Assembly (NCBI GenBank): GCA_012031265.1
Contig: JAAUTY010000018.1
Span: 1-64,000, forward strand
Source: Spirulinaceae cyanobacterium SM2_1_0
Lineage (GTDB): Bacteria; Cyanobacteriota; Cyanobacteriia; Cyanobacteriales; Spirulinaceae
Reading direction: 5' to 3'
Length of the DNA: 64,000 nucleotides
Below are positions 45,896-50,721 of the stretch, piece by piece. The stretch's first letter is position 1. Every line of letters starts with the position of its first letter. The position numbers and the translations under genes were made by a program. The notes beneath the pieces were generated by a model. The model saw only the letters and a program-made list of their open reading frames with translations. It searched no databases and was not told the origin of the DNA.

Positions 45896-48226
45896 CTAGC
45901 GACGGCTCAGCAACCAGTAGGTTGTCATTTCGCCCTTGCCTCGCACCAGCAACTTGCCGCGTCGCTTGAGGTGATAGCGCGATCGCAACTGGCGATACAC
46001 CGCCTGCGTGACTTGGATGCAACCAGCTTCGCCCTGGGACTCCATGCGCGAGGCGACATTCACCGTATCGCCCCAGAGATCGTAGATGAAGCGACGAATG
46101 CCGATCACGCCTGCCACCACCGGCCCGGTGTGAATGCCAATCCGCAGCGACAGCGGCACTCCCTGCTCGTCGGGAAAACTGGAGATCGCGGCTTGCATAT
46201 CCAGGGCGAGATCGGCGATCGCCGCCACCGAATCACCGTGCTCAGTCGGCACACCGCCCACCGCCATGTAGGCATCGCCGATGGTTTTGACCTTTTCCAG
46301 CTCATGCCACTCCACCAGCTTGTCAAACAGCGAAAAGATGTGGTTGAGCAGAAAAACCACCTCCTTCGCTGACATCTGACCTGCCAGGGCTGTGAAGCCG
46401 ACGATATCGGCAAACAGAATCGTTGCCTGGTCAAACTGGTCGGCGATCGAACCGCTACCCTGCTTGAGCTGTTCCGCGATCGGGGCTGGCAAGATATTGA
46501 GCAATAACTGCTCTGAGCGTTGCTGCTGTTGCTGGAGAGCGGCCTCCACCTGCTTGCGTTGGGTGATGTCGCGCGCCACCCAAATGACCGCTTGCTCATT
46601 GAGCGGCGAGATCGTGGCGGCAAACCAGTGGGGCTGACTCGCCAGTTCGATTTGGTACTCAACGAGTTGGGTCGTGCCAGTAGCGAGGGCTTGGCGGATC
46701 GTCTGGATGAACAGCTCTGCTTGCTCTGGCGGGAAAATATCGTGCTCCGTTACCCCAATGAGCGCGTCAGCCGATTGGGCTACCAGAGTCGGATCCCCGG
46801 CGGCGATTTTGAGGTAGCGTCCGTCGGCATCTTTGACGAAGATCAGCTCTGTCATCGCCGCAAACAGGCTGCGTAGCTCCGCATCCGCTGCTGCTAGCGC
46901 TAGGGTGCGTTGTTGCACCCGCCCTTCGAGTTCAGTGTTGGCTTTTTCTAGAGCGGTAAAAGAGGCGTGCAACTGTTGCGACATTTGGTCAAAGGCGGCT
47001 GCGAGCGACTGCACTTCGGCAATCGGGCCGGGAATCGTCTTGCCCTGAAGTTGCCCCGCCGCCATTGCCTGACTGGCGGCGATCAGGCGGGTCAGCGGCT
47101 CTGTCAGCCAGCGCGCGGTGAGGATGCCGAGACCGATCGAGAGCACCAGCGCCCCCAGGCAAAGCCAGAGCGTCAGGCGCGTATTTTGCTCGATACGAGC
47201 GAGAAAATCGGCTTCGGGCACGACGACGACGATCAGCCAGTCCAGGCCCTGCGCGTCGGTCAGGGGCGTGACTTGCAAAAATTGCGGTTCGCCGTCGAGG
47301 GTGAAACTCAGTTGTGTCGGGGCGGCGATCGCCCCCAAATCAGGAAAGGTCGCTTCTAAATAGGCTGCCGTCGCCTGGATCAGCGGTTCGCCCATGTTGC
47401 TGGCTTTGAGGCGCAGCGTCGTACCGTAGGAGAGCAGGAATGGCTGCTCCAGGGTGGAACTGGCAACCAAGAACCCCGACCGCTCGATGATAAACGCTTG
47501 GCCGGTTTTGCCAATGGCAAGCGCTTGTAAGAAATCGCCAATTTCAGCCAGCGCGATTTCGGCGCTGAAGACCCCCAATAGGCGACCCTCACGGTCGTAA
47601 ACCGGTTGGCTGAAGGGGCTGGCGAGGGTTTGCGCGTCGGGGCGGGTATAGATGCCAGCCCAAATTGCGGTGCCGGTCTCAATCGCGACTGTGTACCAAG
47701 CCTGGAAGCGAGCATTAACATCGGAGGTACTGCGGAGGGGGCGGCTGCGTTGACCCGGCGCGGTTGCCGCATAGGTTGTCAACTCTCGTGCCGTCGCTGC
47801 GGTCGCCTCATAAACCTGAAACGAGCCATCGCGTCGGCGCTCGATCCCCAGCAATTCCCCCCGCGCATTGCCAAATTTGATGCCGCTGAGGCTGGCCGTA
47901 GCCCGCAGTTGCGGCCAAAGAAAGCGCTCAATCTCGCCCCAGTCGGCTGGGTTGAGCACGCCTGATTCAACCGCTTCCACATTCATCTGGTTGATCTGAA
48001 CCGGTGCATCCAAGTAAGTCTGCACCTGCTGCTGAATGCGGGCGGTGATTTCGGCCCGCAGTTGCGCGGTGACCTCAGCGATCGCCCGCTCGCCATTGCG
48101 TAGCGACAGCCAGCCGGTCAGCCCGACGGCGAGCGCGATCTGCACGGCAAATGGTAGCACCAGCACAGTCCGCAAAGGCAGTCTGGCTGGGATGCGCGAT
48201 CGCCAGCGAGAGGGTAGGCCGGGCAT
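45896..48226 (-). CDS. Cache-HAMP-PAS class III adenylate cyclase
   Basis: The 776-residue membrane receptor has an N-terminal helix, a periplasmic double Cache-like sensor (about 60-330), a second helix, HAMP (about 355-410), a coiled coil, PAS (about 445-560) and a class III cyclase domain (about 600-770). Metal-binding aspartates are in ILFADIVGFT and KTIGDAYMAVGG; the substrate pair is Lys (KVKTIGD) and Asp (YDLWGDTVN), the adenylate pattern. The Asn/Arg catalytic pair is in TVNVASRM. It should make cAMP on binding a ligand outside. ATG 48226 is chosen, but TTG 48289, which overlaps the upstream gene, is possible. Confidence 0.92.
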   Translation of the reverse strand: MPGLPSRWRSRIPARLPLRTVLVLPFAVQIALAVGLTGWLSLRNGERAIAEVTAQLRAEITARIQQQVQTYLDAPVQINQMNVEAVESGVLNPADWGEIERFLWPQLRATASLSGIKFGNARGELLGIERRRDGSFQVYEATAATARELTTYAATAPGQRSRPLRSTSDVNARFQAWYTVAIETGTAIWAGIYTRPDAQTLASPFSQPVYDREGRLLGVFSAEIALAEIGDFLQALAIGKTGQAFIIERSGFLVASSTLEQPFLLSYGTTLRLKASNMGEPLIQATAAYLEATFPDLGAIAAPTQLSFTLDGEPQFLQVTPLTDAQGLDWLIVVVVPEADFLARIEQNTRLTLWLCLGALVLSIGLGILTARWLTEPLTRLIAASQAMAAGQLQGKTIPGPIAEVQSLAAAFDQMSQQLHASFTALEKANTELEGRVQQRTLALAAADAELRSLFAAMTELIFVKDADGRYLKIAAGDPTLVAQSADALIGVTEHDIFPPEQAELFIQTIRQALATGTTQLVEYQIELASQPHWFAATISPLNEQAVIWVARDITQRKQVEAALQQQQQRSEQLLLNILPAPIAEQLKQGSGSIADQFDQATILFADIVGFTALAGQMSAKEVVFLLNHIFSLFDKLVEWHELEKVKTIGDAYMAVGGVPTEHGDSVAAIADLALDMQAAISSFPDEQGVPLSLRIGIHTGPVVAGVIGIRRFIYDLWGDTVNVASRMESQGEAGCIQVTQAVYRQLRSRYHLKRRGKLLVRGKGEMTTYWLLSRR

Positions 48227-48281
48227 ACACGAGGAGCAGACAGCAATAGGGGCGGGTCTCGGAACCTGAGCACGGCGAGGC

Positions 48282-49037
48282 TCAGCCAAACCATTTTTGA
48301 ATCAGACGTTCTATTTCTCCATCATCTTGCAATTGCTTCAGGATCTCGTTGAAGCGCTCGAGATCGTCCGATCCCTTGGGTAGGGCGATCGCGCTGCCTT
48401 CGGTTCCCGCATCAAAGGGTGTCTCGAAGTTCAAATCCGGGTTGGCAGCCGTATAGCTCTTGGCGACGGTGGACTCAATGACCGCCGCATCGAGTTCGCC
48501 CGCTTTGACCGCCTGGACAATCTCGCCAATCGCCTCTAGCTCCACCAACTCCGCCTCGGGCAGTTGTTCCGCCGCCGCTTCGGCTTGGATCGAGCCAGCC
48601 TGGACACCGACTTTTTGCCCGGCGAGCGCCGCTGGACTGTCGGCACGTTGACCCTGGCGAGTCAAGATGATGCTCTCGGCTTTGTAATAAATGTCAGTGA
48701 AGTCTACTAGTTCACGACGTTCTGCCGTGGGAGACATCCCTGCCATAACAAAATCGACTGATTTGGCTTGTAGGGCTGGGATCAGGTCATCAAAAGGACG
48801 ATTTTCAATCTTCAGGTCGGTGTCCAATTCTGCAGCGATCGCCCGGGCAATGTCGATGTCAAAGCCGACAATCTCCTCCTCGCCGCCAGAGGTGTCAATG
48901 AACTCATAGGGCGGATAGTCCGCCGAAGTGCCCATGACCAGGGTTTGTTCAGTGCCCGCATCGCTACAAGCGCCGAGAGCGACCACGCTTAGAACAGCCG
49001 CGAGGGCCGACGACCAAAGTTGTCGAACCGATTTCAT
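48282..49037 (-). CDS. amino-acid-type solute-binding lipoprotein
   Basis: The 251-residue protein has a lipoprotein signal (lipobox LGAC, cysteine 24) and one family-3-like binding domain: MGTSADYPPYEFID, GFDIDIARAIAAELD, MAGMSPTAERRELVDFTD and GVQAGSIQAE. Such proteins bind polar amino acids or similar small molecules in the periplasm. The usual permease and ATPase genes are absent. Instead the next gene downstream on the same strand is a Cache-type cyclase; its stop (48282-48284) overlaps the possible TTG start of that gene at 48289. It may deliver ligand to that receptor. Confidence 0.9.
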   Translation of the reverse strand: MKSVRQLWSSALAAVLSVVALGACSDAGTEQTLVMGTSADYPPYEFIDTSGGEEEIVGFDIDIARAIAAELDTDLKIENRPFDDLIPALQAKSVDFVMAGMSPTAERRELVDFTDIYYKAESIILTRQGQRADSPAALAGQKVGVQAGSIQAEAAAEQLPEAELVELEAIGEIVQAVKAGELDAAVIESTVAKSYTAANPDLNFETPFDAGTEGSAIALPKGSDDLERFNEILKQLQDDGEIERLIQKWFG

Positions 49038-50269: not shown

Positions 50270-50436
50270 TGCTATCGATAGCAAAAACCTTCCGCCTCTC
50301 CACACACAAGAGATGCGACATATAGCGTCTCTTTGATTTTGGGGGATGGGTACCGAATTTAGTGTCATAAAGTCCGAATTTGGCTCTCCTGGATCTGCGG
50401 TGATAAGCACAAGTTTTCAGTGCTGAAAGGGAGCAT

Positions 50437-50600
50437 CCCAGTTTGGAAACCCTCACCCTAAATCCCTCTCCCAAGCTGGGAGAGGGACTTCTAGCTCCCC
50501 TTCTCCCAGCTTGGGAGAAGGGGTTGGGGGATGTAGACGCGCAGCGGCTTCTCGTAGAGTGGGGAACCGTAGCGCCAAAGTGGGATGCACCCGTGCTGAA
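50437..50600 (+). repeat. dispersed repeat with two strong hairpins
   Basis: The segment contains caaccctcaccctaaatccc-like sequence and two perfect hairpins: 50464-50486 (9-bp arms ccctctccc/gggagaggg) and 50497-50523 (12-bp arms ccccttctccca/tgggagaagggg, 3-base loop). It ends near gatgtagacgcgcagcggct. An inverted copy lies at 31889-32012 and a partial relative at 59999-60125. Confidence 0.8.
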
Positions 50601-50721
50601 ATCACTGCCAAGCAAGGGTTTCAGCAATTCAGCCCACAAGGTTTGGTATCAGTACTACACTTATCCCACCCTAAACCCAGGAGAGCTAAAATTAACAGCC
50701 AGGATTCGCTGCCGTCGCGTA

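Follow-up and report, generated by a model that had tools for sequence, protein, structure and literature searches.

Receptors driven by solute-binding proteins (SBPs) are well known, and relays of this sort have been described for chemoreceptors, sensor kinases, c-di-GMP enzymes and Ser/Thr kinases. The list of SBP-activated receptors in a 2022 review (PMC9602780) has no adenylate cyclases. The closest case to the one described here is Salmonella STM1987, a dCache_1 cyclase whose response to arginine needs both the dCache domain and the binding protein ArtI (PMC8846402). Like ArtI-STM1987, the gene pair reported here combines an amino-acid SBP with a dCache_1 receptor that has a nucleotide-cyclase output, but STM1987 signals through c-di-GMP as against cAMP or a kinase here, and our SBP gene adjoins the sensor gene and lies apart from transporter genes. 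Docking of a periplasmic SBP-type protein on a transmembrane second-messenger enzyme, a step that the present pair would have in common, is known from NspS-MbaA of Vibrio cholerae (PMC8967002), which differs in its polyamine ligand, its SBP family and its GGDEF/EAL output. Of 11 characterised couples of an SBP with the sensor histidine kinase that it activates, 10 have adjoining genes; adjacency does not always mean partnership however, and no interaction was found for AgtS and AruS, which are SBP-kinase neighbours in P. aeruginosa (PMC11113362). A literature search covering open-licence papers found no paper on an SBP-driven adenylate cyclase.

The SBP gene and the adjoining adenylate cyclase gene

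The window, that is the whole stretch of 64,000 nucleotides analysed from Spirulinaceae cyanobacterium SM2_1_0, encodes an amino-acid-type SBP_bac_3 lipoprotein (hereafter sensor SBP) followed by a class III adenylate cyclase (Table 1). The initial annotation had described a binding lipoprotein without ABC permease or ATPase, and on its strand a cyclase of Cache-HAMP-PAS type starting at 48226. Our analysis agrees on each of these points: no permease or ATPase gene was found beside the pair in the gene neighbourhood of the window locus and the neighbour of the SBP is the cyclase, both genes lie on the minus strand, Pfam detects dCache_1, HAMP, PAS_4 and Guanylate_cyc in the cyclase, and the most likely cyclase start is the ATG at 48224-48226. 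It had also been stated that the SBP stop overlaps or nearly overlaps the cyclase start, of which the adjacency stands and the overlap does not. The SBP stop lies 55 nt before this ATG on the same strand, and an overlap, of 8 nt, arises only with the TTG at 48289 that begins a longer, mechanically called ORF; the ATG is favoured because the cyclase proteins of relatives begin near it. A scan of the locus for promoters and terminators gave nothing exceeding chance level and a search for Rfam families gave no match. The genome also contains a dispersed repeat of ~140-210 bp in roughly 40 copies that are 81-98% identical, one of them upstream of the sensor SBP (window 50430-50640), another at C11:10858-10996 just beyond the permease of a transport paralogue, and the others in about 38 further places.

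Table 1 Features of the SBP-cyclase locus in window coordinates
Feature	Position	Strand	Basis
SBP_bac_3 amino-acid-type solute-binding lipoprotein (sensor-clade SBP), 251 aa	48282..49037	-	Pfam, ATG start, TGA stop
SBP lipobox cysteine Cys24 (LGAC)	48966..48968	-	Sequence motif
dCache-HAMP-PAS-class III adenylate cyclase, 776 aa from ATG 48226	45896..48226	-	ORF, Pfam, fold model
Cyclase transmembrane helix 1 (approx.)	48110..48181	-	Hydropathy, helix in model
Extracytoplasmic dCache_1 sensor domain	47183..48109	-	Pfam E 2.3e-13; pLDDT about 90 over most
Cyclase Gln196 at position of PctA Arg126 (carboxylate ligand), lost	47702..47704	-	Alignment
Cyclase Glu244 at position of PctA Asp173, changed	47558..47560	-	Alignment
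Cyclase transmembrane helix 2 (approx.)	47120..47182	-	Hydropathy, helix in model
HAMP domain of cyclase	46964..47122	-	Pfam E 3.7e-8
PAS_4 domain of cyclase	46550..46858	-	Pfam
Class III adenylate cyclase catalytic domain (Guanylate_cyc)	45908..46441	-	Pfam E 4.1e-63

The SBP matches Pfam SBP_bac_3 with an E-value of 7.7e-37 and 126.4 bits against a curated cut-off of 26.4, and its lipobox cysteine does not vary among the first ten homologues of the alignment. The structure model (pLDDT 86) has the two-lobe SBP fold with 4ymx as best Foldseek match (E 1.5e-27), and among solved structures it comes closest to binding proteins for arginine and basic amino acids, of the ArtI/ArgBP type (PDB 4ymx, 4zv1, 4psh). 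The window SBP has ligand residues in common with these proteins but is encoded without permease and ATPase and has lost positions that are conserved in transport. Residues S38, Y41, Y44, G100, T104, R107, Q146, Q151 and E188 of the ligand site are kept in 11/11 sensor SBPs, and in the alignment R107 and E188 are present in 32/32 transport SBPs as well. We take R107 to be the arginine for the alpha-carboxylate of the ligand and E188 the acidic residue for its amino group. A basic amino acid, arginine or another, is the probable ligand.

The full-length model of the cyclase has a modest pLDDT of 73, the dCache part being good, and the protein has one PAS_4 domain compared to three matches in the cyclases of each of four relatives. 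When the cyclase was aligned with the mammalian enzymes adenylate cyclase 5 and 9, Asp628 and Asp672, Lys668 and Asp737, and Asn744 and Arg748 (797-aa numbering) were identified, presumably with roles in metal binding, adenine recognition and catalysis respectively. As one chain carries all of the usual class III catalytic residues the enzyme is expected to be a homodimer; it has the sequence features of a class III adenylate cyclase and is predicted to form cAMP. For a genome of 5 Mb, dCache and class III cyclase proteins are very numerous: 75 stretches across many contigs match the window cyclase, and many of them are separate sensor or cyclase genes. At C101:46750-52550 (L046) a dCache-HAMP-PAS adenylate cyclase 44% identical to that of the window, with an intact dCache amino-acid motif and no SBP, divergently adjoins a dCache hybrid histidine kinase so that two amino-acid-type sensors with different outputs stand head to head.

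Recurrence of the pair and its transport relatives

The initial annotation had suggested a search of related genomes for the pairing, and we find the pair in the same order and on the same strand in 11 cyanobacterial genomes, all counts and E-values being based on one genome per species. The output domain is a cyclase in five genomes (the family of the window, including Spirulina) and HisKA/HATPase in six (Roseofilum-type). In the four genomes of the window's family other than its own, including Spirulina sp. CS-785/01 and S. subsalsa FACHB-351, the same SBP is directly followed by a dCache-HAMP-PAS-cyclase protein; in Roseofilum and UBA2566 a scan of named genomes together with neighbourhood analysis identified the same SBP and, directly after it, the same sensor half with HisKA and HATPase at its end. 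The input half of the sensor is a plug-in module, coupled to a cyclase in the family of the window but in Roseofilum to a histidine kinase. The output domain itself was rejected as the conserved unit since the Roseofilum sensors have no cyclase domain, and the nutrient-to-cAMP pathway proposed at the outset is too narrow a description, given the Roseofilum kinases.

When the dCache-HAMP half was compared with 391 genomes of the order the ten best matches, the query included, were all paired with an SBP, and one more paired sensor was found lower in the ranking. An SBP of this type was found in the fetched flanks of 0/83 unpaired related dCache sensors, and no sensor-clade SBP without a dCache partner was found. 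The pairing of the SBP with the cyclase is beyond chance. In a tree of 43 SBPs the 11 sensor SBPs fall on one side of a branch with 100/100 support and in a tree of 36 dCache halves the paired sensors likewise form a single clade (100/100). Pairwise identities of SBPs and sensors correlate with r = 0.98, which is expected under co-inheritance and is therefore not by itself proof of binding. As the 11 pairs are one clade, pairing and the loss of the dCache motif described below may each have been a single event.

Most of the next-closest relatives of the sensor SBPs are encoded with an ABC permease. Among 80 loci from the named-genome scan the five best carry dCache, and a permease lies downstream, together with an ATPase, in 71 of the 75 others. 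A few SBPs (L059, L070, L072, L132/L148) stand alone with neither permease nor sensor adjacent; L059, L072 and L132 fall in the transport clade of the SBP tree. In the window's own genome a 51% identical SBP paralogue adjoins a permease (C11:11108-11836), which raises the possibility that the sensor SBP serves this permease as a further binding protein, several SBPs sharing one permease, with adjacency to the cyclase only co-regulating uptake and signalling. The ligand residues, which match those of transport SBPs, are consistent with such use, and it is possible in all five cyclase-type genomes, which carry the transport paralogue as well as the permease (75-80% identity for the orthologue in the other four). 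The six Roseofilum-type genomes keep the pair however, and in these no orthologous permease was found, the best match being a fused SBP-permease of about 511 aa at about 40% identity and in one genome only 29%; a second SBP of this type was not found in them either. That the SBP acts with a distant ABC transporter, an alternative raised in the initial annotation, is weakened by these pairs.

Sequence changes in the sensor SBPs likewise speak against a shared permease. In a comparison with 32 transport SBPs drawn from both cyanobacteria and Bacillota, six positions, 93 (Arg), 147 (Leu), 168 (Asn), 181 (Arg), 189 (Asp) and 194 (Gly), are the same in 31-32/32 of the transport proteins, whereas all or nearly all of the sensor SBPs differ there. 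Such a pattern would be expected if selection on permease contacts, to which these positions may belong, had been relaxed. A shorter C-terminus, hinted at by the homologue alignment, was set aside as a marker of sensor SBPs since domain trimming had cut the tails. Given these changes and the presence of a dCache partner beside every sensor-clade SBP found, we regard service to the C11 permease as unlikely. The best explanation is that the sensor SBP, whether derived from an ABC-transport SBP or sister to one, can now do without a transporter.

The dCache amino-acid motif in paired and unpaired sensors

The amino-acid motif of dCache_1 domains comprises Y121, R126, W128, Y129, Y144 and D173 of PctA (PMC10104139), and we placed these positions on the sensors through an alignment with PctB. 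None of the 11 paired sensors has Arg at the R126 position, six carrying Gln and five Glu. Arg is present in 78 of 83 distinct dCache sensors without an SBP partner, collected from this and other genomes of the order. The D173 position is Glu in 11/11 paired and 0/83 unpaired sensors, 56 of the latter having Asp. The unpaired dCache paralogues of this genome mostly carry the amino-acid motif. The window sensor belongs to the same dCache_1 family as the dCache_1AA receptors (PctA and relatives) but differs from them, as does every SBP-paired sensor, in the loss of both R126 and D173. Four unpaired sensors with no SBP nearby (L214, L217, L218, L233) have Glu at the R126 position and keep D173, a different pocket variant.

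Judging from these substitutions the paired dCache domain no longer seems to recognise amino acids directly. D173E is a conservative change, and the altered pocket could bind some other ligand. If it bound a different small molecule directly the SBP would be a scavenger or modulator, dispensable for switching. Most paired sensors retain the aromatic pocket residues Y129 and Y144, and a Gln at the R126 position is found in the amine-binding dCache of PacA (PMC10104139). Both the amino-acid and the amine motifs however include the Asp for which every paired sensor has Glu, and affinity in PctD falls 162-fold when this Asp is mutated (PMC10104139). Three paired sensors have also lost W128, and direct binding leaves the strict linkage to the SBP unexplained. 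We therefore consider a pocket of this kind improbable. The initial annotation had likewise considered direct ligand binding by the Cache domain, which is weakened by the loss of the motif in 11/11 paired sensors and its retention in most unpaired ones.

That the two genes are functionless neighbours by coincidence, inherited together by descent from the single ancestral arrangement behind all pairs, is very hard to credit, as the pair has outlasted about 50% protein divergence and an output swap while the genes outside it differ between genera and the surrounding gene order did not persist.

A proposed two-part receptor

We consider it likely that SBP and cyclase make up a two-part receptor in which the ligand-loaded SBP is the co-receptor of the dCache sensor. 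The relay put forward in the initial annotation is supported: the pairing is conserved, the dCache motif is broken in the paired sensors, the SBP keeps its ligand residues and the Roseofilum-type genomes have no orthologous permease; docking, the identity of the ligand and the direction of the cAMP response are the parts that we infer. The lipid-anchored SBP would catch an amino acid outside the membrane and close, and the closed form would dock on the cyclase's dCache domain. Docking would shift both transmembrane helices along with the HAMP and PAS segments, the homodimeric class III cyclase would change its activity, and the presence of a nutrient would in this way be read as a change in cAMP; in the relatives the same input would switch a kinase output instead. 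The Roseofilum form fits the class of SBP-activated sensor histidine kinases directly, whereas that of the window differs in its adenylate cyclase output. On balance we favour, with somewhat more reserve, the wider description of an SBP-gated transmembrane adenylate cyclase, in which a dCache domain without a pocket of its own serves as the docking platform for a dedicated lipoprotein and the output, cAMP or phosphotransfer, is exchangeable.

By comparison with the described systems the SBP co-receptor is of a kind already known, and the adenylate cyclase output would be the new part. If the two-part receptor is real, a residue other than Arg at position 126 together with Glu at position 173 would mark SBP-dependent dCache sensors, and this signature might tell sensors that rely on a binding protein from those that bind their ligand directly. 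To our knowledge the upstream signals of cyanobacterial cAMP are mostly unknown, and a conserved SBP-cyclase pair would connect nutrient sensing with cAMP in these organisms.
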